Source: Candidatus Gastranaerophilales bacterium (GTDB lineage Bacteria > Cyanobacteriota > Vampirovibrionia > Gastranaerophilales > Gastranaerophilaceae). From it: a stretch of DNA of 37,584 nt. A model generated the notes under the pieces. The model did no database searches. It had not been told where the DNA came from and saw only the letters and a list, made by a program, of their open reading frames with translations. The stretch spans positions 1 to 37,584 of the forward strand of contig CANQLJ010000016.1 in the NCBI GenBank assembly GCA_947624685.1, in the 5' to 3' direction. This document shows positions 893-30,473 of this stretch, one piece after another (position 1 is the first letter of the stretch; each line of letters begins with the position of its first letter). The translations under genes and the position numbers were made by a program.

Positions 893-1855
893 CTATAATT
901 GCGAAGCAACTTCGCAAGTAGTCTTTCCGATTGGGATACATCTTTTACAAGCGTCCTGATAAGGTTTTTTATAGAAATTAATCAAATCGTCTCTAAGGTT
1001 TTTTGATGATAAAATTTCAACATAATCATCATTTTGAATAATATTTAATTCCCGAGCGCTTGAAGCTTTTGAACAAACTTCGATTTTGCCGTTTAGTATC
1101 TGGGTGCAGTTCACTCTTTCGCAGGTGCGAAATTTTTCTTTTGTCGTTTCAATATCGCTATCCGCCTCGTTTTTAAAGCCTTCTTCGCTGCACCAGGCGA
1201 TAGAATCAACAAATTGATATTTAACATTTATTTTATCTAAGGTGTTTTTTATCTCCTCGGGCTTTACTATATTTTTAAGATTTTCATTTGAAGTGTAGTT
1301 TGAGATGAAAAAATAGACTTTTTTATTATATTTTTTTAGCACATCAAGAGTTTTTTGATTCGGAATAATTGTTGCATTTGTTGTAATTCGAACAAAATTA
1401 ATCTTATCCTGTTCAAGCGCATAAGATAATATCTCGCTAAAATTCGGATGCAAAAGAGGTTCCCCCCCTAAAAGCACAAAATGATTTATCATATCGACAT
1501 CAGATAAAATCTTATCAAGATTTGATTTGAATTCATCTAAACTCACTATAATATGACAGTTGTTGTTGAATTTTGGAATCAAAGCGTTGCATTGGCTGCA
1601 TTTTAGGGTACATCTTGTGGTAATAGCGTATTCGATTTGAGGAATCGAAAATTTATTTTTAAGATAAAAATTTTCAATTTCTTCATTTGTAAATTCATTT
1701 AAAATCTGTTCTTTTTTCAAAGGATTTAAGAATTTTCCCTCTTTAAACCACATAAATTTCAAGCTTTGAATTGCAAATTTTATTTTTGCGTTTTGTTCAA
1801 AATATCTTTTATAAAAAGAGGGCTCGATATTGTATTTTTCTTTTAAAGGGAGCAT
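893..1855 (-). CDS. Radical SAM enzyme (paralogue 1)
   Basis: 320 aa from ATG at 1855. The frame is open further upstream to 1942, but that would overlap the preceding gene, and 1855 gives a length matching the paralogue next door (318 aa). Cys82-x3-Cys86-x2-Cys89 (TRCTLKCSQC) is the 4Fe-4S/SAM motif and LLGGEPLLHP is the SAM-binding GGEP motif. The C-terminal third has spaced cysteines (CERVNC, EVCSKA, CKRC) like a SPASM/twitch auxiliary-cluster region. The N-terminus (FYKRYFEQNA, LKFMWFKEGKF) is shared with the next gene only. The substrate is unknown; in this setting it may modify a sugar or a peptide. The GGEP codons contain a G7 run, short of the other tracts. Confidence 0.85.
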   Translation of the reverse strand: MLPLKEKYNIEPSFYKRYFEQNAKIKFAIQSLKFMWFKEGKFLNPLKKEQILNEFTNEEIENFYLKNKFSIPQIEYAITTRCTLKCSQCNALIPKFNNNCHIIVSLDEFKSNLDKILSDVDMINHFVLLGGEPLLHPNFSEILSYALEQDKINFVRITTNATIIPNQKTLDVLKKYNKKVYFFISNYTSNENLKNIVKPEEIKNTLDKINVKYQFVDSIAWCSEEGFKNEADSDIETTKEKFRTCERVNCTQILNGKIEVCSKASSARELNIIQNDDYVEILSSKNLRDDLINFYKKPYQDACKRCIPIGKTTCEVASQL

Positions 1856-1893
1856 ATAATGCCTACTTTCCGTGTTTAAAATTGAATTACTTT

Positions 1894-2850
1894 TTATTTT
1901 TCCTGCAGGGCCGGTTTGACCGTTTTGTCGGACAAAATACAATATTTACAAGAATCCGAAAAAGGTTTATTGAAAAATTTTATTAAATCTTCTTTGAGAT
2001 TTTTGCTGTTTAAAATATCGATATAATCATTTGTATCAATAATTCCCAATTCTCTTGCAACAAGGGCTTTAGAACAAATGTCAAATTTTGAATTCAATAT
2101 TTGAGAACATTTAATTCTATAGCAATTTTGCGCTTTGTTGACTGTGTCAATATCATCTTGCGCAGTTTTTGACATTCCTTTTTCTTCAAGCCAATTCCAG
2201 CTATCTACCATTTGAAATTTGATATTATTTTTATGCAAAATTTCTTTTATTTCTTCATACTTAGATAGCTTTGATAATTCCGAATTAGCAGAATAGTTGC
2301 TCAAAAAGACATAGATTTTTTTATTATATTTATTTAAAACTTCAATCAGTTCGTCGTTTGGAATTATTGTTGCGTTTGTTGTGAGCCTTGTTATGGAGAT
2401 TTTTTCTTGTCTTAGCGCATAATCAAGCATCTTGGCTAAATTCGGATTAATCAAAGGTTCGCCCCCTAAAATTATAAGGGTTCTAAGCGAATTCAATGCC
2501 ATCAATAAGCTATCGAGCTGATTTTTAAAATCTTCAAAAGTCATATCAATGTGTTTAACTTTGTTTAATTGAGGAATTAAAGCGCAGCAATCAACACATT
2601 TTAAGCTGCATTTTGTCGTAATACAAAATTCAACTTGAGGCAGGTTTAATCTGCCGCAATTAAAATCTTCAATTTCTTCTTGAATATATTTTTGCAGTGT
2701 TTCATCTTTTTTCATCGGATGGATGAACTTGCCTTCTTTAAACCACATAAATTTAAGCATATCAACGCTTAATCGATTTGTTGCGTTTTGCTCGATATAT
2801 CTTTTATAAAACGTTTTTGATATTTCTTGTTTAGTAATTGTTTCTTGCAT
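1894..2850 (-). CDS. Radical SAM enzyme (paralogue 2)
   Basis: 318 aa, ATG at 2850 preceded by AAGGAAAATA. Cys81-x3-Cys85-x2-Cys88 (TKCSLKCVDC) and LGGEPLINP mark the radical SAM core; C-terminal cysteines (CYRIKC, FDICSKA, CKYC) suggest a second cluster. It is clearly a tandem duplicate of the downstream gene: same N-terminal block (FYKRYIEQNA, LKFMWFKEGKF), same order of motifs (TTNATIIPN, SNYS, ARELGII). It lies 8 bp after a GT2 gene in the same operon. Likely a cytoplasmic enzyme in the pathway that makes or tailors a glycan unit; exact reaction unknown. Confidence 0.85.
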   Translation of the reverse strand: MQETITKQEISKTFYKRYIEQNATNRLSVDMLKFMWFKEGKFIHPMKKDETLQKYIQEEIEDFNCGRLNLPQVEFCITTKCSLKCVDCCALIPQLNKVKHIDMTFEDFKNQLDSLLMALNSLRTLIILGGEPLINPNLAKMLDYALRQEKISITRLTTNATIIPNDELIEVLNKYNKKIYVFLSNYSANSELSKLSKYEEIKEILHKNNIKFQMVDSWNWLEEKGMSKTAQDDIDTVNKAQNCYRIKCSQILNSKFDICSKALVARELGIIDTNDYIDILNSKNLKEDLIKFFNKPFSDSCKYCILSDKTVKPALQEK

Positions 2851-2858
2851 TATTTTCC

Positions 2859-3536
2859 TTATTTTCTTAACTTAGCTCTTAAAATTGACGCATAGTCTTT
2901 AAATTCGCGATTTTGTTGCATTTTTCCAAAGTTTGTCATATGGAGTCTTCTTTTTGTCGAGATGAAATCGATTTTTTTAATTTTTAAATTATTCTGAATC
3001 ATCTTCGTCTGCCATTCTATTATCTCGCCCGCCTTAAGGGATTCGTTGAAACAGCCTATAATATCAAACACATCTTTTTTCATTAAAATTGCGCAGGTAA
3101 ATAAACCATAATAGGCTTGAGGCTTGGCAATTGTTTTTTGTTTTTCTTCTTGCGAAATATCATCGGATATAAAATCCTGGACTTTTGCTTGAATAGCATA
3201 TAATGAAGAATCTTTTTTAAATTCATCCAAAAAAAGATTCAATGTGTTTGGGTTCATTATATCGTCGCTATCGCAAAAAATGATATAAGAACCTTTTGCA
3301 ATTTTTAAAGCTTGGTTTTTAGCGACAACCGGGCCTTTTGATATTTCGTTTCTTATAACAACACAATTAAATTTTTTTGCAATTAACCCTGTGTTATCAT
3401 TTGACCCATCATCAACAAGGATTATTTCAATATCGGCATTTTGGTTTTTTATTGAAATAAGTAAATCTTCAAGATATTTTTCGCCGTTTTTACAAGGGAT
3501 TATAACTGAAATCATCGGAGACGATATAGCAGACAT
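2859..3536 (-). CDS. Family 2 glycosyltransferase
   Basis: 225 aa GT-A fold: ISVIIPCKNGEKYLEDLL, then VDDGSNDNTG, then the DxD-type CDSDD. This is compact, with the catalytic domain and a short tail. The ATG at 3536 overlaps the stop of the upstream GT2 (TAATG), so translation is probably coupled; an internal ATG at about 3515 (MISVIIP) is an alternative start. It resembles its upstream neighbour in length, in the NG(E)KY..I/L motif and in the C-terminal RRLHMTNFGKMQQNREFKDY block, so the pair look like an old duplication. Donor and acceptor sugars cannot be told. Confidence 0.85.
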   Translation of the reverse strand: MSAISSPMISVIIPCKNGEKYLEDLLISIKNQNADIEIILVDDGSNDNTGLIAKKFNCVVIRNEISKGPVVAKNQALKIAKGSYIIFCDSDDIMNPNTLNLFLDEFKKDSSLYAIQAKVQDFISDDISQEEKQKTIAKPQAYYGLFTCAILMKKDVFDIIGCFNESLKAGEIIEWQTKMIQNNLKIKKIDFISTKRRLHMTNFGKMQQNREFKDYASILRAKLRK

Positions 3537-4306
3537 TATGCAGCCTCCTTAATTTCAAAGATGAAATCAAGAAGGGAGGTTACTCTCTCTCTCTCTCTTA
3601 CTGCCGCAACGGTTTTGAGGTTATCTTGTTTTTCTTTATCCATATCTGAATTAATTTTTATTCTCTCTCTTAAAACTTTTATATAATCTTTGTACTCATC
3701 TTTTTGATTTGTTCTTCCGTAGTTTAAATCGTGGATTCTTCTTTCGCAGGAGACAAAATCAATCTTTTTTATTTCAAATCCGAATTTTTTTAAACGATTT
3801 GTTAAATCAATAACATCGCCCGTTATAATATCTTCTCGAAAATCGCCAATCATGTCAAGTATGTCTTTTTTAAACATAGTTGAACCCGTTAAAATTCCCC
3901 AAAACGGTTCTTTTTTGCAAAAGCGGATTTGCTCCGGCGTATCGGGTGAGCAAAAGTCTTTTAATTTTGCCATAATTATTTTAACGTTTTTATCTTTTTG
4001 AAATTCGTCATAAAGACGCTTTAAAGCACCGGGGGCCAATTTGTCGTCCTGGTCGATTGTGAGCCAATAATTACCTTTTGATAGTTTAATACCTTTGTTT
4101 TTGCCCGCAACTTGGCCTTTTCTTTTTTCATTAACGTAGACGAAGCAGCCCATAGAACGCGCAATTTTTGCCGTAGAATCACAAGAAACATCATCAATGA
4201 CTATTATTTCAACAGGCATGTTTTGAGATTTTATGCTCTCTATTGTTTCTTTGATATATTTTTCCCCGTTAAAAGAAGGAATAACAACTGTTATTAAATC
4301 TTGCAT
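3536..4306 (-). CDS. Family 2 glycosyltransferase with (AG)8 repeat near 3' end
   Basis: 256 aa. ITVVIPSFNGEKYIKETI, IDDVSCDSTA and TIDQDDK are the GT2 nucleotide-sugar motifs. The C-terminal part (CERRIHDLNYGRTNQKDEYKDY) matches the downstream GT2, then an extra tail of about 35 residues follows. The tail holds an (AG)8 run that codes RERERV. Changing the run by one unit either way gives a stop within a few codons and would uncouple the overlapping start of the next gene. The gene follows an 86-bp gap with no clear signal after the AKR/radical SAM gene. Donor and acceptor unknown. Confidence 0.85.
   Translation of the reverse strand: MQDLITVVIPSFNGEKYIKETIESIKSQNMPVEIIVIDDVSCDSTAKIARSMGCFVYVNEKRKGQVAGKNKGIKLSKGNYWLTIDQDDKLAPGALKRLYDEFQKDKNVKIIMAKLKDFCSPDTPEQIRFCKKEPFWGILTGSTMFKKDILDMIGDFREDIITGDVIDLTNRLKKFGFEIKKIDFVSCERRIHDLNYGRTNQKDEYKDYIKVLRERIKINSDMDKEKQDNLKTVAAVRERERVTSLLDFIFEIKEAA
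3583..3598 (-). repeat. (AG)8 dinucleotide repeat inside GT2 gene
   Basis: Eight CT units on the plus strand, (AG)8 in the coding strand, in frame as R-E-R-E-R-V. Loss of one unit reads SNLPS then stop; gain of one unit gives GAG TAA. It is long enough to slip during replication. A weaker CT4 run lies at 3663-3670. Confidence 0.75.
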
Positions 4307-4392
4307 AATTATTTTGGCTTCTAATTTACATCCGCGTATTTATCAAGCAAAATAATTATATAATAACCCGTTTTTAGCGCACAAGTTTAGAA

Positions 4393-5862
4393 TCATTGTT
4401 TTTTACAATTATTAATCTGTTGTGCGGGCAATAATATTTTTTCATAATTTTTCATATCACAGCAGCCGCATATATCAAATTCTTCTGCGCTTATGAATTT
4501 ATTAAAATCATCGCAAGTAAAGTTTTTCTTTTTGAAATCCAGCATTTCATAGTCGAATTTCTTTCCGGCTTCATCGTTAATATAAACGGCACGCGCGCAA
4601 GGGTACATTTTTCCGTTTGAAAGCATCATACAGTATTTAAAGCTACATCTTTCGTAATTTGATTGCGCAAGATTTTTGTCAATGTCTTTTGGCTCTTTTA
4701 TGACAATTTCGGGCTGCTGCCACCAATAGTAGCTTTCGACAAAATTGCAAATAATGTTGTTATCTTTACATAATTGGACAATTTTTTCAAAGTTTTCTTG
4801 CAGCTTAGGGACATTTTTTGAATAATTTGAAATATAAATTGATGCGTTTTTTGCTCCCTTTAGTTCTTTAATTAATTCATCGGATGGAATAACGGAAGCG
4901 TTTGTCACAATTATTGTTCTTTCGATTTTTCTTTGTTTCTTTGAGTATTTGACCATTTTTGCAATGTCTTTATTTAAAAGAGGCTCCCCGCCCAACAAAA
5001 CCATATCATACACGCGATTGACGTTTTTTGTTAATGTATCAATATAGTCCTTAAATTCAAGAAAATTCATCGTGTGAAGGTTTTCTTTTTTATAATAAGG
5101 AATCATATGGGCACATTGGGCGCATTTAATGGTGCAGATATTTGTCACTTGGACGTTTTGGTGAGCGATTATGGCTTTTTTTGCGTATTTTAGACGCAAT
5201 TTTATAAAATAATCCTGAAGTTTTGTATATTTTTTATAACCGTATAATTTTTGAGAAACGTGGATTTGATTGAAGATATAGTCTCTGTCGCTTCTGTTTG
5301 CGTGTTTTCTTTCAAGAGATGTTTCTATATCATAATTCGGGATAACATTATTTTTATAGCGATAAAATCGCATATCAAGAGATTTTTTAAATAAAGGAAT
5401 GATACCAAAAAGATAATATTTCTTTTTGTGGGAATTGTTTCTGTTTTTAGCGTTATTGCATATTTTTTTGCTCTTTAAGATGGGGATAAAATTAAATAAA
5501 TAAAAATTTTCTATGTCATTATTAAAAGAGCTTATTTTAAATTTCATTATGGGCAAAAAGCCGAATAAATAGAGCTTTGAAACATCGGGGGTTTTATTTT
5601 TCCATTTAATAAGGGGCAAAAGAAAATTGAATTGAACTTTTTTTATGACTTCTTTTTTATATAGTTCATTTTCAAGCATCCAGTAATTAAAAATGCAATC
5701 GGGTGATTTTAAAGGATTGACGGGTCTTGCGTTTAGTGTATCGAGTTTTTCCATATCTTTTGGTGATACATTAAAATCTAAGACTTTTAGATCTTTTATA
5801 TTTAAAACATCATCAGAAGAAATAACGACACTATAGCCTTTTTGAAGATTCCAGCGAATCAA
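4393..5862 (-). CDS. AKR C-terminus fused to radical SAM enzyme (downstream half of a phase-variable gene)
   Basis: Read from ATG at 5862 this is 489 aa, but the frame is open back to the poly-G tract at 5955-5963 with AKR-like sequence (DEISKKYNKNYNEILIRW). Residues 1-~65 are the AKR barrel end (LIRWNLQKGYSVVISSDD). Then come three copies of a [LFY]YLF[GN]F/IIP motif (~95-165), and a radical SAM domain from ~230 with CTIKCAQC (C-x3-C-x2-C), LLGGEPLLN and a cysteine-rich end (CSFKYC, PCARA, CGCC). One extra G in the tract would join it to the AKR half upstream (5949-6656) into a 754-aa AKR-radical SAM protein. As written the join is broken, so this is probably the OFF state. Internal initiation at 5862 cannot be excluded, but no clear ribosome site is seen there. 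Confidence 0.8.
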   Translation of the reverse strand: MIRWNLQKGYSVVISSDDVLNIKDLKVLDFNVSPKDMEKLDTLNARPVNPLKSPDCIFNYWMLENELYKKEVIKKVQFNFLLPLIKWKNKTPDVSKLYLFGFLPIMKFKISSFNNDIENFYLFNFIPILKSKKICNNAKNRNNSHKKKYYLFGIIPLFKKSLDMRFYRYKNNVIPNYDIETSLERKHANRSDRDYIFNQIHVSQKLYGYKKYTKLQDYFIKLRLKYAKKAIIAHQNVQVTNICTIKCAQCAHMIPYYKKENLHTMNFLEFKDYIDTLTKNVNRVYDMVLLGGEPLLNKDIAKMVKYSKKQRKIERTIIVTNASVIPSDELIKELKGAKNASIYISNYSKNVPKLQENFEKIVQLCKDNNIICNFVESYYWWQQPEIVIKEPKDIDKNLAQSNYERCSFKYCMMLSNGKMYPCARAVYINDEAGKKFDYEMLDFKKKNFTCDDFNKFISAEEFDICGCCDMKNYEKILLPAQQINNCKKQ

Positions 5863-5948
5863 AATTTCATTATAATTTTTGTTATATTTTTTTGAAATTT
5901 CATCCGTGATTTCGTTTTCAATATAGCCAATGTTGTCTTGTTCAAATC

Positions 5949-6656
5949 TTATAGCCCCCCCCCAACGGAGTTTAAGAGTTCGTCATTTTTTTCAAATATA
6001 TTTTCAACACTTTCTATTACACTCATACAATTAATGTTTCTTTGTTTACACCAATTTACAACTTCATTTTGCTGCCATTGAAACGATAATTCAAGCTGAT
6101 TTACAAAGGGGAGAATTTTTGCGGTTTTTAAAAGTTCTTCAAGATGAAGTATCGAAAAATTAGCAACGCCTATATTTTTTATTTTTCCTTCGCTATAACA
6201 TTTTTCAAGTCCGCGCCAGGTTTCGCTGTTTATTTTTTTCCATAGGCCGTCTTTTGCTAAATTCGGGTAAGGGATTAAATATAAATCAATATAATCGAGC
6301 CCCAAGTCCTTAAGAGAGTTTTCAACCGAAGCAATTGCTTCATTATAGCCCATTTTTTGGTGCGGGTCTAATTTACAGGTTATGAATAAATCTTGTCTTT
6401 GAACAACTCCCTCGCTGATACTTTCTAATATCCCCACAGCAATTTCTCTTTGTCTGTATTGATATAGCGAAACATCAATATAGCGAAATCCCAGTTTTAT
6501 TGCATCTTTAATTTTCTTTGTCATCTCCTTGCCATCGGCGCCATAAAATAATTGCGCACCACAAAGGGACATTGGTTTTATTATATTATTTGTTTCATCT
6601 TTAATTTGTTTTTGAGATTGTGCATCAGATTGTTGAAGGGTATTATCTAAAATCAT
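5949..6656 (-). CDS. Aldo/keto reductase, truncated by poly-G tract (upstream half of AKR-radical SAM gene)
   Basis: 235 aa as written, ending VGGGL-stop directly after G9. It covers the N-terminal ~3/4 of an AKR (TIM-barrel NADPH oxidoreductase): LGFRYIDVSLYQYRQRE, FITCKLDP, LDYIDLYLIPYP, IKNIGVANFSILHLEELL, INQLELS-like (VNQLELSFQ). The Asp, a Tyr and the Lys of the tetrad have candidates, but the usual His of LIHWP is Pro (LIPYP). With G10 instead of G9 the reading continues as GGGAIRFEQDN into the AKR C-terminus and radical SAM domain (4393-5862). Upstream ribosome site is weak (GGATG, 12 nt away). It is the third of three tandem AKR genes. Confidence 0.85.
   Translation of the reverse strand: MILDNTLQQSDAQSQKQIKDETNNIIKPMSLCGAQLFYGADGKEMTKKIKDAIKLGFRYIDVSLYQYRQREIAVGILESISEGVVQRQDLFITCKLDPHQKMGYNEAIASVENSLKDLGLDYIDLYLIPYPNLAKDGLWKKINSETWRGLEKCYSEGKIKNIGVANFSILHLEELLKTAKILPFVNQLELSFQWQQNEVVNWCKQRNINCMSVIESVENIFEKNDELLNSVGGGL
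5955..5963 (-). repeat. Poly-G tract (G9) splitting AKR-radical SAM gene
   Basis: G9 on the coding strand codes Gly232-234, then CTA TAA stops the AKR. The frame needed for the downstream half differs by +1, so G10 (or G7, G13) gives the fused 754-aa product. The tract is preceded by TCCGTT, the same six bases that precede the tract in the PEP mutase gene. Confidence 0.9.
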
Positions 6657-6698
6657 AACTTATAAACATCCTTATTTTGAATTTTAAACTTTAATATT

Positions 6699-7703
6699 TT
6701 AAACGCTGTCGTCGGTAATTACTCTTAATATCGGAATATTTAAAAAGAACCATTTGGTCTTGCTCCATCTGTATTTTTTCATTTTAATCAAAGGAATAAA
6801 TCCAAAAAGATTATAGGTTCTTGTGTATACTTTGGGTCTGTATTCTTCGGCGTTGGGGTCAGGGTGTGCGAGTCTATATTTATATCCCGCATCTTCATAA
6901 CGATACATTCCAATATCAAGAGAATCGATATATTTCATTTCTTCATCAGACAATTCAAAATCATATATGTCAATGTTTTCCTTTATTTCATCAGCATTTT
7001 TTGATGAACATATCGGGATATATCCTTTTTGTAAGCACCATCTGAGTGCGACTTGGGCAAATGATTTATTGTGTCTTTGACCGATTTCTTTTAAAATGAA
7101 TTCGTCTTGGATATACATAATGGGGCTGTATGCTTCAATTGCGATTTTTTTATCTTTCAGATAATTAACAAGTTCGCAGCGCAAATTCTTTGGATTTACG
7201 CTGATTTGATTTACCATGGGTTTAATTGTCGCATAGTTCAAAAGATGAACAAAGTGCTCTTGAGAGAAATTAGATACACCGATGATTTTGACCTTATTTT
7301 CGCGATAGAGCCTTTCAATTGCTCTATAGGTATCGGCAACATATTTTTTCCATAACGGATCAAAATCCCAAGGATAATGAATTAAAACCATATCGATATA
7401 GCTAAAACTCAAGTCATTCAACAGCCCTTCGACAATTTTAATTGTTTTATTATAGCCCGGCTCGGAAATTTTTAAGGTCAAAAATAAATCTTCTCTTTTT
7501 ATGAGCTTGTTTTCGATACAATAGTTGATGCCTTTTGTTACGCCATCTAAGTTCATATAATCAACAGCTAAATCAAAATGCTTGTAGCCTTGTTTTACGG
7601 CTTCAATTACGGTATCGCAAACGAGCTTATCGTCATTTAATCTTCCTGTACCAAAAGCAAGATTGGGGATTTTTATATCATTAATCGTGAAAAATTTATC
7701 CAT
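6699..7703 (-). CDS. Aldo/keto reductase with intact catalytic tetrad
   Basis: 334 aa, ATG at 7703 behind AAGGAG. A full-length AKR: IPNLAFGTGRLND, YKHFDLAVDYMN (Asp, Tyr), FLTLKIS (Lys), DMVLIHYPWD (His), IKIIGVSNFSQEHF (VKIIGVSNFS), MVNQISVNP, ALRWCLQKGYIPICSSKNADEI. All four tetrad positions are filled, unlike the AKRs on both sides. The last ~60 residues are an extension with the motif YNLFGFIPLIKMKK and WFFLNIPILRV, shared in style with other glycan proteins here. Probably a soluble NADPH-dependent carbonyl reductase acting on a sugar intermediate. Second gene of the putative recombinase-switched operon. Confidence 0.88.
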   Translation of the reverse strand: MDKFFTINDIKIPNLAFGTGRLNDDKLVCDTVIEAVKQGYKHFDLAVDYMNLDGVTKGINYCIENKLIKREDLFLTLKISEPGYNKTIKIVEGLLNDLSFSYIDMVLIHYPWDFDPLWKKYVADTYRAIERLYRENKVKIIGVSNFSQEHFVHLLNYATIKPMVNQISVNPKNLRCELVNYLKDKKIAIEAYSPIMYIQDEFILKEIGQRHNKSFAQVALRWCLQKGYIPICSSKNADEIKENIDIYDFELSDEEMKYIDSLDIGMYRYEDAGYKYRLAHPDPNAEEYRPKVYTRTYNLFGFIPLIKMKKYRWSKTKWFFLNIPILRVITDDSV

Positions 7704-7712
7704 ATTATCTCC

Positions 7713-8558
7713 TTAAACATTAATTCCAAAAGGGGGCCATGTTTGGTTGTTTTCAATATCTAAAGAATCAAGAAAATCCATATCTTCTTTTGACAAAGAA
7801 AAATCAAAAATATTCATATCTTCAATCAAATGTTCTTCTTTTGTTGTTCTTGTCATGCATAATCGCTCGTGTTGTATGTGCCATCTTAGAATCAATTGAG
7901 CGGGCGATCTGTCGTATTTTTGGGCAAGCTTTATGATATTGTCGTCATAGCAAGCTTTGCCATATCTCATACTTGCCCAGGTTTGAACTATGATTGAATT
8001 TTGTTTGGTAAAATTCTCAACGTCTTTTTGTTGAAAATAAGGATTTATCTCCAATTGATTAATCATTGGCTTGATTTTTGCTTCTTTTAATAAAAGCTCA
8101 ATATATTTTATTGAGCAGTTTGAAATTCCGATTACTCTTATTTTATTTTCTGAGTATAATTCTTCCATTGCTCTATAGCTGTCGAGAAACAAAGTTTCCA
8201 CTTCAGCGCTATACCAGGAAGGGTAGCGGATTTGATATATGTCAATGTAATCGGTATCTAAATTTTCACAGCTTTTTTTAAAACATTCTTTTGTGTCGCT
8301 ATAGCCTTGATAATAGCTTTCAACTTTGGTGGATAAAAGAATGTCTTCTCTTTTTATTATGTTGTTTTTGATGCAGTTTTTAACCCCTATCCCAAGGCTC
8401 ACTTCATTTTTAAAGCCGTTTGAAGTTTCAAGAAGCCTCACGCCGTTTTCAATCGCCGTGATAACTGTTCTTTCACATAAACTCCCGGGCTCGAGATGAT
8501 GTATGCCAAAACCTAAAACAGGCAGTTTTACGCCATTTTCGAGTTCTATATGGTTCAT
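7713..8558 (-). CDS. Aldo/keto reductase-like protein with degenerate active site
   Basis: 281 aa from ATG at 8558 (MNHIELENG, the normal AKR start); the open frame extends to 8633 but that part lies within the inverted repeat region. Barrel motifs are present: LPVLGFGIHHLEPG, LDTDYIDIYQIRYP, IRVIGISNCSIKYIELLL, MINQLEINPYFQ, ILRWHIQHERLC. Catalytic positions are altered: DTA..Y is ETSNGF (Asp to Glu, Tyr to Phe) and the His of LIHWP is Arg (QIRYP); only the Lys (STKVE) stays. It may therefore be a structural or binding paralogue rather than an oxidoreductase. First gene of the operon, starting 18 bp beyond the left inverted repeat; its ribosome site is weak (AAGAAAG). Confidence 0.85.
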   Translation of the reverse strand: MNHIELENGVKLPVLGFGIHHLEPGSLCERTVITAIENGVRLLETSNGFKNEVSLGIGVKNCIKNNIIKREDILLSTKVESYYQGYSDTKECFKKSCENLDTDYIDIYQIRYPSWYSAEVETLFLDSYRAMEELYSENKIRVIGISNCSIKYIELLLKEAKIKPMINQLEINPYFQQKDVENFTKQNSIIVQTWASMRYGKACYDDNIIKLAQKYDRSPAQLILRWHIQHERLCMTRTTKEEHLIEDMNIFDFSLSKEDMDFLDSLDIENNQTWPPFGINV

Positions 8559-8575
8559 TTTACGATTCTTTCTTA

Positions 8576-8584
8576 TGCTACAAT
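8576..8584 (+). promoter_or_regulatory. Possible extended -10 promoter for the recombinase
   Basis: TGCTACAAT fits TGnTATAAT in 5 of 6 core bases and points into the cassette; no good -35 is seen. The matching place in the right repeat reads TGCAACAAT, which is worse, so only the left end could fire inward. A transcript would begin near 8591, ahead of the ribosome site at 8632. Confidence 0.35.
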
Positions 8585-8603
8585 TTTTGCAAAATGTTGC
8601 ATG
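8576..8603 (+). repeat. Left inverted repeat / recombinase site
   Basis: TGCTACA arm (8576-8582), 12-bp core, TGTTGCA arm (8595-8601). Its bases 8580-8603 are the exact reverse complement of 9208-9231. The outer arm also contains an extended -10-like element (TGCTACAAT). Confidence 0.85.
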
Positions 8604-8647
8604 GAAAAAAACAGTTAGTTGCACAAACATCAAGGAAGGAAATGGAA

Positions 8648-9192
8648 ATGACAGCAGTGGAACCTATTCGTTGTAAAAAAAAATTACAAAAGTTGAAAAA
8701 ATACTAATAAAACACAACTACAGAGATTTTGTTTTATTTAAACTTGGAATTAATTGCGGGCTAAGGATTTCAGACATATTGGCGTTGAATGTCGGAGATG
8801 TCAAAAACAAAAATTTCATAATTTTGACTGAAAAAAAGACGGGTAAAATAAGGAAAATTCCCGTGAATCTGCTTTTAAAAAATCTTTTAAAGACATACAC
8901 AAAAAACAAAACCAACAATATGCCCCTTTTTGCAAGCATGCATTCGGGAAAAAGATTGGACAGATTCTGTGTCTATAAAATAATCAAAAACGCCTGCAGA
9001 AAAGCGCAAATCGAGTGCAATATCGGAACGCATACTCTGAGAAAAACGTTCGGTTATCATTATTACAAAAAATACAAAGATATTGCCATGCTCCAAAAAA
9101 TATTCAATCATTCATCCCCAAGCGTAACGTTGAGATATATCGGAATCGAGCAGGAAGATATTTACAAAAGTTATATTCACTTTTTACTTTAG
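8648..9192 (+). CDS. Small tyrosine recombinase, frame broken at A9
   Basis: The start ATG at 8648 lies 8 nt after AAGGAAGG (an ATG at 8642 is too close). The N-terminus reads MTAVEPIRCKKK, then the A9 run at 8675-8683 takes the frame to a stop at 8704. In the frame reached by a -1 shift (or one more A) it continues ITKVEKILIKHNYRDFVLF and on to the stop at 9192, about 181 aa in all. Catalytic set is complete: Arg (GLRISDIL), Lys (TEKKTGKIR), HxxR (HTLRKTFGYH), His (FNHSSPSV) and Tyr (LRYIGI). It has no separate arm-binding or core-binding N-terminal domain of normal size, like other short phage-type recombinases. Probably acts on the inverted repeats that flank it. The broken frame may be ribosomal slippage, phase variation or a dead gene. 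Confidence 0.8.
8675..8683 (+). repeat. A9 run / possible -1 slippery site in recombinase
   Basis: TGT AAA AAA AAA in the start frame contains A-AAA-AAA, the best known -1 slippery heptamer type. The downstream catalytic frame is exactly the -1 frame. A tenth A made by polymerase or replication slippage would give the same product. Confidence 0.55.
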
Positions 9193-9204
9193 TTATGATA
9201 TTAT
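9176..9204 (+). promoter_or_regulatory. Candidate invertible promoter
   Basis: TTCACT (9176-9181), 17 bp, then TATTAT (9199-9204) preceded by TG one base upstream (an extended -10). It overlaps the recombinase stop codon and ends just inside the right inverted repeat, so transcription would begin near 9211. It now reads right, into the terminator at 9287-9322. After inversion it would read left, with a leader of about 45 nt, into the AKR gene at 8558. Boxes are seen; activity is inferred. Confidence 0.5.
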
Positions 9205-9207
9205 CAT

Positions 9208-9235
9208 CATGCAACATTTTGCAAAAATTGTTGCA
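9208..9235 (-). repeat. Right inverted repeat / recombinase site
   Basis: TGCAACA arm (9210-9216), 12-bp core, TGTTGCA arm (9229-9235). Bases 9208-9231 pair perfectly with 8580-8603 in inverted orientation. Confidence 0.85.
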
Positions 9236-9286
9236 CAGAAAAGTTATATGTAATAATTGTATATGCAATAATTTTCAAAAAAAATT

Positions 9287-9322
9287 AAAAAGGTGCTTTT
9301 GTTTTGTATTAAGCACCTTTTT
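9287..9322. terminator. Bidirectional rho-independent terminator
   Basis: AAAAAGGTGCTT (9287-9298) pairs with AAGCACCTTTTT (9311-9322) over a 12-nt loop. T-rich runs follow on both strands. On the minus strand it ends the long operon that finishes with the DUF1796 gene; on the plus strand it stops anything leaving the recombinase cassette. Confidence 0.8.
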
Positions 9323-9380
9323 TATTTATTTGTTCTTATTTATCGCGACTGCGGGGTTTTTGCCGTATTTAATAGATATT

Positions 9381-10118
9381 TTAGCTAAAATAGTATATCT
9401 CGCTAATCAAATTGAACCAATCTATTAGCCCCCCCCCAAGGTTAGTGTTGTCATCTCGGGCAAATTTTTTGACAAATCCGACACTGATATTTTGGTTGCT
9501 ATATGAAGTCAGAAGCGCTTTTTCATCATCATTAAAACATCTTTTTTCAAAGACGCACAGAAGTTTATAATCTTTATTGGAACAATTTTTGTTTAATATT
9601 TCATTAATTTTTTTAATGTAGTCAATATCAAGTTCGAGCGAAGTTTTGATGATTTTTATTACAAAAAGAATTCTTTTGTCGCTATTTATAAGGTTATGAG
9701 TTTTATTTGCCAAATGAGAAATTTTATTTTTAAGATTATTTTTGATTTTTTCAATATCGCAATTTTGAATATTTTCTCTAAGCTCTTTTTCTTCGTTAGG
9801 GTGGAAGCTAAAACCCGTCTTTAAACCCCTCATCATCCCCCAGGGTAAAATTTCAAAGTCACAATCAGAATAATAAACGGGGTTGTCGAGCGAATTTAAA
9901 AAACCGATTCTGTCTGATATATAAAGCCAGCTATACAGATAATGGTTAAATTTATTTTTCAAAATACCTTTTATTCTAAATGACGTTTCGCAATTATATC
10001 CAAGGCTCATAACCTCATCAAAACGAGGGGTTTTAAAACAATTTTTCAGCGCAAAAAATATCTCAAGCGAATTTAATCTCACTGTTTTTAAAAATGTCTC
10101 AAGTTTTTTTATGTGCAT
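9381..10118 (-). CDS. DUF1796-type putative cysteine peptidase family protein, with poly-G tract
   Basis: 245 aa, ATG at 10118 behind AGGATA. EVMSLGYNCETSFRIK (with the Cys proposed as nucleophile in the papain-like DUF1796 family), HYLYSWLYISDRIGFLNSL, the DCDFEILPWGMM block and LFVIKI fit that family, common in capsule and LPS gene clusters; biochemical role unproven. G9 codes Gly228-230 close to the C-terminus, followed by LIDWFNLISEIYYFS, which looks like a natural family ending, so G9 is probably ON. G8 gives an immediate stop; G10 gives a different 8-residue tail. Last gene of the long phosphonate/GT operon, just before the terminator. Confidence 0.75.
   Translation of the reverse strand: MHIKKLETFLKTVRLNSLEIFFALKNCFKTPRFDEVMSLGYNCETSFRIKGILKNKFNHYLYSWLYISDRIGFLNSLDNPVYYSDCDFEILPWGMMRGLKTGFSFHPNEEKELRENIQNCDIEKIKNNLKNKISHLANKTHNLINSDKRILFVIKIIKTSLELDIDYIKKINEILNKNCSNKDYKLLCVFEKRCFNDDEKALLTSYSNQNISVGFVKKFARDDNTNLGGGLIDWFNLISEIYYFS
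9429..9437 (-). repeat. Poly-G tract (G9) in DUF1796 gene
   Basis: Nine G on the coding strand between CTT and CTAATAG. In frame as written. The sequence after the tract (GCTAA) is the same as in the FkbM tract at 5-14. Confidence 0.9.
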
Positions 10119-23282: not shown

Positions 23283-24599
23283 TTTGCCCCCGGAATCAGA
23301 GTTATAATATCTTTTATCTTCATACAGTATTTATCTGACGCTTCTTTAGACCTATGGTTTTCAAGGATGCTTTTTGCGGTATTAACCATAGCCGGATATG
23401 CCGAGCGCAAAAGGTGATTAGCGTAAATTACGATATTAACCCCGTTTTCAATAAGTTCTTTTTCATATACATCGCAATACGACGAAGGCACAACAACAAG
23501 AGGCTTTCTGTTTGGTAATTGATTATATAATTTACAAAATTGTTTAACTTCGTCAAATGTTTCTTTTCTTGAATGAATCATAATGCCGTCCGCTCCGGCA
23601 TCTAAATAGGCTTTTGCTCTTAAAATAGCGTCATCCATTCCTTTTTCCAAAATCAAACTTTCAATTCTTGCTATAATCATAAAGTTTTGAGTGATTTGAG
23701 CATGCTTTCCGGCTATGATTTTTTTGCAAAAATCTTCAATATTATCTTGATTTTGAACAACTTGATTACCGAATAGAGAATTTTTCTTTAAACCAATCTT
23801 ATCTTCAATGATAACGGCAGAAACACCCAAACGCTCAAGAGTCTTAACAGTGAAAACAAAATGTTCGACAGGCCCGCCGTTGTCGCCATCATAGATAATC
23901 GGTTTTGTTGTGACTTCTAAAATATCATTAAGCGCGGCCATTCTTGATGTCGTATCAAGATAGCCAATGTCGGGCCTTGCGCAAGCGGCACTTTGAGTAA
24001 GCGAAGAAATCCAAATGCCGTCAAATTCGATTTTTTTGCCGTTTTGTTCAACAAAAGTATTTTCGACAATCAATCCGCACAAGCCGTTATGGGCTTCCGA
24101 TATAACAACAAGGTCTTTTGAATCCAAAAGTCTTTTTAAGCGGTAACTTCTGATTTCGGGGGTTGTACCCACTTCTTTTAATATTGAATTTAATTTTGTG
24201 GAAGAAATTCCTTTTGTATAGGGTATGTCGATTACTTTTCCTCCCCATTCTTTCATTACTTCAAGGATTCTTGCTCTTGTTGAAGCTTGAACGCCTGTTT
24301 TCCAGTCGTCTCCGTGTAATACATAATCGGGCTTGATTTTTAATAAATTCGGTACGTAATCAAGAGTTTCCTGTGCAATTACTTCATCGACACCTTTAAC
24401 GTTTTCAACAATAACTTTCCTTTGTTCAAAGGACATGTAAGGTAGTCGTTTATAGCTTGCAATCGCTCTATCGGTCAAAAGACCAACTACTAAAGACCCC
24501 CCCCCCAACGGAATCTAAAATTTTTCTTGCTTCGCTGATGATATTTAAATGGCCCGGATGCAATAAATCTGCACTCATTGCAATATAAACTTTTTTCAT
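23279..24599 (-). CDS. Phosphoenolpyruvate mutase with N-terminal cytidylyltransferase-like domain; frame-broken by poly-G tract
   Basis: ATG at 24599. Residues 1-34 ([18 protein letters not shown], HxGH motif) begin a nucleotidyltransferase domain; G10 then shifts the frame to VFSSWSFDR-stop, so as written the product is 43 aa. With G9 it continues [19 protein letters not shown] and on to 439 aa. The rest of the cytidylyltransferase domain ([13 protein letters not shown]) leads into a PEP mutase barrel from ~150 ([24 protein letters not shown]) with the signature [10 protein letters not shown]. It makes the C-P bond of phosphonopyruvate, entry step for all the operon's phosphonate chemistry; the N-domain may make a CMP-phosphonate. 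Relatives usually have a much shorter loop where Gly32-34 lies, so the tract looks inserted. Residues downstream of the tract are intact, arguing for a switch rather than decay. Confidence 0.87.
24497..24506 (-). repeat. Poly-G tract (G10) in PEP mutase gene, out of frame as written
   Basis: Ten G on the coding strand at codons 32-35. G9 joins the HPGH half to the rest; G10 stops after nine more codons. Preceded by TCCGTT as in the AKR tract. Confidence 0.92.
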
Positions 24600-28415: not shown

Positions 28416-30473
28416 ATGGATGTAAAAGAAGGAAGTAAAAATAAAATATTTAAGTATATTTTTTTAACGATGTTAGCCGTTAAATTACTTGTTTTAGGCA
28501 TGTTTTCATCGGATTATCAAAATATTTTATTTATTCCTTTTGTAAGCCACTTTGTTGAATTTTTTGATAATCCTTGGAATTGGGCCTATCAGACAAACGC
28601 TTCGGTTGAATTTCCCTATCATCCTTTGATGCTATACGCTTTTTCACCCGGCGCCTTTTTAATAAAATTATTTCATATTAATAATATATTTTTATCGAAT
28701 TTTTTGTTTAAAATACCGATATTGCTTGCGGATTTAGGAATTTTTTATTTATTTTTAAAAAGCACAAAAAACAAATACTGCTGTTTGATATATTATTTTT
28801 GTTCGCCCGTGATACTTTGGGCTTCTTATATGCACTCTCAGCTCGATATTGTACCTGTTGCAATATTATTTTATTCTTTTTATCTTTTAAAGCGAAAGAA
28901 AATCAACCAAGCGACAATTTGGTTCAGCGCCGCCTGCTGTTTTAAATTAAACGCCATACTTTTACTTATGATATTTTTAATTTATCTTTATAAAAATTCC
29001 GATAAAACAAAAGCAATTTTATCTGCGCTATATTTTTCCGTAATCTATTTTTTAATTTCGGCACCTTTTATATTAAGCGAAGGGTATCAAAAACTTGTTC
29101 TTTTTAATCCGAAACAAAATTTATTTTTTAATTTGCAGGTTGATTTGGGACAAGTCGCAATATATATCCCACTTTTGTGTGTTTTGCTTTTGTATTTCAG
29201 GTTTATGTCCTACAAAAAGATAAACAACAGTCTTCTTGATTCATTTTGCTGCCTTGTAATTTCGACATTTTTAATTTTTATAAAGCCGGCTTCACCCGCT
29301 TGGCATATTTGGCTGATACCTTTTATCGTTCTTTTTGTGATTAATTTTTCGCAAAAAAACAAATATATTTTGCCCGTTTATGTGATGTTAAATATAGTTT
29401 ATTTAGTATATTTCATTTTCTTTCATATCGGAGACTATTGCGATTTGACGTTTTTAAGTCATACGATAAATCTAAAAATAAATAACGAATTTTTAAGCAA
29501 CTGCGTTTTCACTCTTTTAGAATCCATAATGATTTCAATTATATATTTAACCTATAAAATCGCTATCAAAAGTAACTCCATATACAAAAAAGAAAGAGCC
29601 GTCTTAATCGGAATATCGGGAGACAGCGGTGCGGGCAAAACCACGCTTTTAAACGACTTGCAAATGGTTTTGGGGGATAATCTTTTGGCCTTAGAGGGCG
29701 ATGGCGCCCATAAATGGGAAAGAAAAAGCCAAAACTGGAATCAATACACCCATCTTGACCCGAGGGCAAATTTCTTGCATCAGCAAATGGAAATGCTCAA
29801 TAGTCTAAAGAACTTTAAAACAACATTTTATCGAGAATATGACCACAACAGCGGGTGTTTTGAAATTAATCAAAAAGTTCAGCCGAGACAATTCATTGCA
29901 TTATCGGGTTTGCATACTTTTTATTTACCTAAAATGAGAAAAATATTAGATTTAAAAATCTATCTTGACACCCAAAAAGAACTTCAAAAATGCTGGAAAA
30001 CGCAGCGCGACATTAAAGAAAGAGGACACAAAAAAGATAAAATCGCTCAATCCATCATAAAAAGAGAAAAAGACGCAATTAAACATATCGCGCCCCAAAA
30101 AGCCTTTGCAGATATTATAATCAACTATTTTGTTGATGATATTTCTATTCTGACTAAGGGGGGGGGGAAGCCTAATTTTCTTAAGCTTAGGATAGATTTT
30201 GATTCCAGCATATGTATAGAAAAATTATCGGCATTTTTGAAAAAGAAAAATGCTTGTTTTGAGTGGGATTATTCGGATGATTTAAAAACCCAATATATAA
30301 TTTTACATTCGCAAAAAGGATTGGATGGGTTTTTTGACATTATCGAAAAACAAATTGATAATGCCGATGAAATATTATGCCCGAATTTTCACTTCTTTGA
30401 CGGATATAGAGGAATAATTCAATTTATTTTACTTATGATTTTAGCTTCGAAAATGAAAGAAAATAATGATTAA
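28416..30473 (+). CDS. GT-C-like membrane protein fused to uridine kinase-like P-loop kinase, phase-variable
   Basis: 685 aa. Residues 1-~385: about ten hydrophobic helices with a PIG-M/mannosyltransferase look (YHPLMLYAFSPGAF, HSQLDIVPVAILFYSFYLL, KPASPAWHIWLIPF). Residues ~390-685: P-loop kinase of the uridine kinase/PRK type (IGISGDSGAGKTTLL, LEGDGAHKWERKS, LSGLHTFYLP, KIYLDTQKEL). G10 codes part of Lys581 and Gly582-584 within the kinase region; the following ~100 residues (KLRIDFDSS, HFFDGYRGIIQFILL) look like a native end of that family, so G10 is ON. G9 or G11 truncates soon after. It probably phosphorylates a sugar or polyol, while the membrane half transfers a glycosyl unit. HAD, aldolase and nucleotidyltransferases follow. 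Confidence 0.75.
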   Translation: MDVKEGSKNKIFKYIFLTMLAVKLLVLGMFSSDYQNILFIPFVSHFVEFFDNPWNWAYQTNASVEFPYHPLMLYAFSPGAFLIKLFHINNIFLSNFLFKIPILLADLGIFYLFLKSTKNKYCCLIYYFCSPVILWASYMHSQLDIVPVAILFYSFYLLKRKKINQATIWFSAACCFKLNAILLLMIFLIYLYKNSDKTKAILSALYFSVIYFLISAPFILSEGYQKLVLFNPKQNLFFNLQVDLGQVAIYIPLLCVLLLYFRFMSYKKINNSLLDSFCCLVISTFLIFIKPASPAWHIWLIPFIVLFVINFSQKNKYILPVYVMLNIVYLVYFIFFHIGDYCDLTFLSHTINLKINNEFLSNCVFTLLESIMISIIYLTYKIAIKSNSIYKKERAVLIGISGDSGAGKTTLLNDLQMVLGDNLLALEGDGAHKWERKSQNWNQYTHLDPRANFLHQQMEMLNSLKNFKTTFYREYDHNSGCFEINQKVQPRQFIALSGLHTFYLPKMRKILDLKIYLDTQKELQKCWKTQRDIKERGHKKDKIAQSIIKREKDAIKHIAPQKAFADIIINYFVDDISILTKGGGKPNFLKLRIDFDSSICIEKLSAFLKKKNACFEWDYSDDLKTQYIILHSQKGLDGFFDIIEKQIDNADEILCPNFHFFDGYRGIIQFILLMILASKMKENND
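30158..30167 (+). repeat. Poly-G tract (G10) in GT-C/kinase gene, in frame as written
   Basis: AAG GGG GGG GGG AAG. With G11 the reading goes GAA GCC TAA; with G9 it stops nine codons later. The only tract on the plus strand. Confidence 0.92.

Follow-up and report, generated by a model that had tools for sequence, protein, structure and literature searches.

Can a promoter be flipped by a recombinase whose own gene travels in the same segment, and does such a device control the operon beside it? The question is raised by a locus in a Candidatus Gastranaerophilales bacterium, an uncultured gut organism, on a stretch of 37,584 nucleotides (the window) that is one entire contig of the 2.0-Mb genome. 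A first-pass annotation of this stretch had proposed a switch that is off as assembled and would be turned on by inversion. We consider an invertible-promoter cassette carrying its own recombinase the best explanation of the locus, with a probability of about 0.75.

Results

Two matching sites bound a recombinase gene

The arms of the two sites (Table 1) are 36 nt each, 89% complementary and 604 nt apart. Twenty-eight base pairs of them pair with a single mismatch and 24 bp match exactly (8580-8603 and 9208-9231), which bears out the annotated 24-bp perfect inverted repeats with two arms and a 12-bp centre: the sites have the form TGCAACA-N12-TGTTGCA, and the N12 centre is the same in the left and right copies. 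The inverted-repeat score of 25 is far above chance, as 20 Markov shuffles peaked at 13-21, and the 37.6-kb window contains no second inverted repeat of such size. A search of the 2.0-Mb genome places the 22-bp core at these two sites only, and a search of the viral collection for it gave nothing.

Table 1. Features of the cassette, its presumed target operon and the related site pair
Feature	Position	Strand	Remarks
Left recombination site (inverted repeat)	8568-8603	-	core 8576-8601
Right recombination site (inverted repeat)	9208-9243	+	core 9210-9235
Putative invertible segment between the sites	8604-9207	.	
Gene for a small tyrosine recombinase, with a -1 frame break near the A9 run	8642-9192	+	RBS AGGAAGG 8633-8639
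A9 homopolymer, where the reading frame breaks	8675-8683	+	
Outward promoter-like element	9176-9204	+	TTCACT-17-TATTAT, extended -10 TG; 3 bp inside right site
Terminator-like stem, strong on both strands	9278-9331	.	in the promoter's present path
First AKR gene of presumed target operon	7713-8558	-	start codon 17 bp from left site
Rest of presumed target operon	893-7703	-	AKR, AKR-radical-SAM, two GT2 glycosyltransferases, two radical SAM proteins
C23 invertible-promoter candidate	L256 9480-9659 (G000:C23:24479-24658)		window's site arms

The 604-bp segment does hold a tyrosine recombinase, as annotated: the product matches PF00589 (Phage_integrase) at 66.9 bits, above the gathering score of 27.1 (E=2.4e-18). 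It consists of the catalytic domain only, without an N-terminal domain, and the catalytic residues R42, K66/K69, H131, R134, H157 and Y166 are each 99-100% conserved in an alignment of 177 rows. Its scores of 29.0 and 36.6 bits against NCBIfam PRK09870 and PRK09871 lie far below the respective cut-offs of 221 and 222 bits.

The earlier reading of this gene as functional did not hold, since its frame is shifted by one base at a poly-A run. From the start ATG at 8642 the frame stops at TAA 8705-8707, and the remaining 171 codons, up to the stop at 9190-9192, are read in the -1 frame; alignment with other cassettes places the shift at the A9 run, upstream of all the catalytic residues. The break may reflect genuine loss, a tract of variable length, slippage in transcription or a mistake in the assembly. 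Given the break, the copy is either locked now or reliant on slippage or an enzyme in trans; present-day flipping needs one of these two or a frame-intact subpopulation. A paralogue on contig C12 of the same genome (49% identity) was considered as a second cassette and rejected because no repeat pair lies near it.

The frame break, which is missing from the four further cassettes described below, speaks for the main rival explanation, a relic: a former invertible promoter now locked by the break, with the operon silent or driven from elsewhere. The relic reading is the less probable of the two, though it has real weight. Against it, the 171 codons are still open and contain every catalytic residue, so any loss would be recent; the arms and centre of the sites are intact; and contig C23 keeps another pair of sites whose arms are the same. 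Slippage at A runs can rescue such frames in other AT-rich genomes. The relic and the working cassette have a common history and differ only in whether this copy still flips.

A promoter-like element faces away from the adjacent operon

The outward extended -10 promoter at the right end and the bidirectional terminator past the right repeat, both called in the first pass, are present as consensus matches. The stem folds well on both strands, with z values of -3.1 and -4.8. The minus-strand operon does begin close beyond the left repeat, the 17 bp being counted from the 28-bp repeat to the end of the AKR ATG at 8558. When the segment is reversed in silico, the extended -10 comes to lie about 48 nt ahead of the AKR start. 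What defines an inverton, inverted repeats around a promoter beside a gene start, is found here, with the promoter recognized by its consensus.

The repeats might instead mainly regulate the recombinase gene, as operators or as its promoter, with an independent promoter serving the AKR operon. Two features suit this idea: TGCTACAAT in the left site, which could serve the recombinase as an extended -10 in the present orientation, and a weak promoter-like site on the minus strand at 9224-9195. We regard it as very unlikely, because the present orientation has no good promoter directed at the AKR start and because start codons by the sites recur on both sides of two of the further cassettes (L084 and L177) and on C23.

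Across the genus, the AKR operon has matches of only 32-38% identity, so there is no orthologous locus to be seen in the other orientation, and the AKR homologues of other genomes have no repeat pairs upstream. Within the operon, the AKR and radical SAM open reading frames at 4393-6656 look like one fusion gene split at a C9 run (5955-5963). This is one of five poly-G/C runs of 9-10 in the window, the others being at 5-14, 9429-9437, 24497-24506 and 30158-30167, where 0.06 runs of at least 8 are expected at 30% G+C. Several of the runs fall where glycan-type genes break frame, many other contigs of the genome also have runs of at least 9, and the pattern looks like slipped-strand phase variation.

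Segments beside related recombinases are reversed between genomes

The recombinase family is present in 240 of 383 genomes of Gastranaerophilales. An inverted-repeat pair, counted at a score of at least 16 within 600 bp, lies beside or around the gene at 86 of 182 non-redundant loci, compared with 1 of 182 when the flanks are Markov-shuffled; the loci are those that matched two queries best, and the proportions are therefore valid for close relatives only. The first relatives examined had no repeats directly around the gene and had pairs adjoining it instead. The same is true of most relatives, in which the pair lies beside the gene and flanks a segment of 77-340 bp. In the final set of 189 loci, 72 pairs are downstream of the gene, 13 upstream and 5 around it, and the relatives hold four further cassettes and about 80 related switches. 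The five cassettes with the gene inside fall outside the large clade of the downstream type, yet do not form one clade.

Several pairs of near-identical loci differ in the orientation of the adjoining segment. L185 and L017, whose recombinase genes are 88% identical, align collinearly over 200 bp, then in reverse over about 140 bp, and then collinearly once more. The segment is also reversed between L143 and L126, with a collinear flank on one side only, and a shorter reversed stretch separates L013 from L035. In these alignments homologous segments next to related recombinases are reversed, which shows that segments adjoining members of the family invert. An enrichment of extended -10 elements in the adjacent segments as a class is unconvincing (4 with 8/8 matches, 1.9 expected), and the promoter argument therefore rests on the cassettes and on a conserved promoter-like stretch found reversed.

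Further arrangements were seen among these loci. At L110, L146, L165, L199, L209 and L232 two recombinase genes stand in tandem with the repeat pair between them; the second gene is 31-37% identical to the query and starts about 50-60 bp past the segment, so that an invertible promoter may control it. L045, L050 and L069 have two overlapping repeat pairs with a common site, giving three sites downstream of one recombinase, and multi-segment inversion is possible there. At L021, L092, L093, L095 and L104 the contig ends less than 100 bp downstream of the recombinase, and mixed orientations might have broken the assembly. The generic pattern CAACA-N12-TGTTG was too loose for mapping further sites, with 74 matches against 49 for the control.

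In the four further cassettes with the gene inside (L099, L139, L177 and L084, the last being the same as L042), the order is repeat, recombinase, outward -10-like element by the far repeat, and repeat, and the distance from arm to arm is 583-598 bp. The centre of the site is identical within each cassette's pair and differs between cassettes. The match to TGnTATAAT is 8/8 in L084, L139 and L085, a relative of the L084 cassette, and 7/8 in the window; in L099 and L177 it is a weak 6/8, which does not exceed that of shuffles. L084 and L177 are flanked by divergent genes or operons whose starts are no more than about 20 bp from the repeats; inversion there would change which side is transcribed. 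On one side of L139 is a prepilin-like gene. L041, a close relative of L084, and L042 have the same orientation. L085 has mismatched site centres and looks locked, a precedent in favour of the relic explanation.

A compact unit of repeats and recombinase could also be a small mobile element, with the repeats as transposon ends, the recombinase as transposase and the neighbouring genes incidental. One genome (G283) carries two such cassettes, and distant relatives occur on phages and plasmids, as this explanation would have it. We nonetheless judge it improbable: the ends vary from one cassette to another, whereas both sites of a pair have the same centre, as for paired recombination sites; most relatives keep the pair beside the gene, around a short segment that is reversed between genomes; start codons abut the sites; and the window's genome has a single copy. 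No empty site of the cassette was seen.

The proposed off and on states are thus well supported in their anatomy and logic, by the cassettes of the same layout, by the family segments reversed between genomes and by the outward -10-like element next to the repeat. The earlier proposal is borne out only in part, however: the recombinase frame is broken, and a reversed joint was seen neither for the window cassette nor for any of the five cassettes.

A second site pair lies on another contig

With three or fewer mismatches allowed, the window's arms match one other place in the genome, the pair on C23; a reversed control pattern had no match. The pair, ATGCAACATTTT-ATATG-AATTGTTACAT and its partner, bounds a 124-bp segment located 22 bp upstream of a gene for a 744-aa AKR-radical-SAM protein. 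The homologue of this gene in the window operon is in two parts, with 49% and 32% identity, and the C23 gene is unsplit. The TATAAT of the C23 segment is directed away from its AKR gene. No recombinase of the family lies within 9.5 kb on one side of the pair, and on the other side the contig ends after 0.7 kb. These features suggest that the window recombinase may act in trans on the C23 sites. On the same reading, the two loci would have the same arms but would not recombine with each other, since the 5-bp centre is different.

Discussion

In the mechanism that we propose, the small tyrosine recombinase would bind the arms of both inverted sites, and strand exchange within the identical centre would flip the 604-bp segment. 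With the promoter pointing rightward, as in the assembled state, transcription would run into the two-way terminator and the AKR operon would be off; with the promoter pointing leftward, RNA synthesis would begin some 40 nt ahead of the AKR start codon and the operon would be on. We infer that the window copy flips, that the leftward state is the on state and that the operon depends on the cassette promoter. A more elaborate version, in which the cassette flips both itself and, in trans, the C23 promoter, and the recombinase is gated by poly-A slippage, would coordinate related operons through two layers of phase variation; we offer this as a tentative idea that is probably wrong in at least some part.

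The closest parallel in working is Salmonella Hin with hixL and hixR, where the recombinase gene and a promoter lie in the flipped segment and the neighbouring operon is on in one orientation (PMC5903667, PMC9368917). The window cassette likewise has its recombinase gene inside the segment along with an outward promoter, but Hin is a serine recombinase acting at hix sites with a Fis-bound enhancer, whereas the window has a tyrosine recombinase, TGCAACA-N12-TGTTGCA sites and a segment of 0.6 kb. The Escherichia coli fim switch resembles it in its invertible promoter and in the catalytic-domain-sized tyrosine recombinases FimB and FimE, to which the NCBIfam similarity is weak, but fimB and fimE are outside the switch and the window gene is between the sites. 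Since one defining character of each is absent here, we place the cassette in neither the Hin nor the FimB/FimE family. Invertons of gut Bacteroidota and Clostridioides have short inverted repeats around a promoter beside surface-related genes, and in these invertons (PhaseFinder-type, RecV) the tyrosine recombinase is nearby or in trans (PMC11892184, PMC5903667); they belong to other lineages, and the window recombinase differs in sitting inside the segment. The window cassette is a variant of the invertible promoters, Hin-like in its working, with a tyrosine recombinase in place of the serine enzyme.

A 2018 study of such switches gave the serine enzyme Hin as its example of the layout with the recombinase inside (PMC5903667). 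Our literature search, of incomplete coverage, found no description of a tyrosine recombinase inside its own invertible segment, and no report of invertible switches in Gastranaerophilales. At about 0.65 kb, the cassette is a compact example of a tyrosine recombinase encoded within the segment that it would flip, and its relatives point to numerous promoter switches in Gastranaerophilales. A cassette flanked by two divergent operons would act as a toggle built from one promoter, and existing metagenome reads make switching in this lineage testable.
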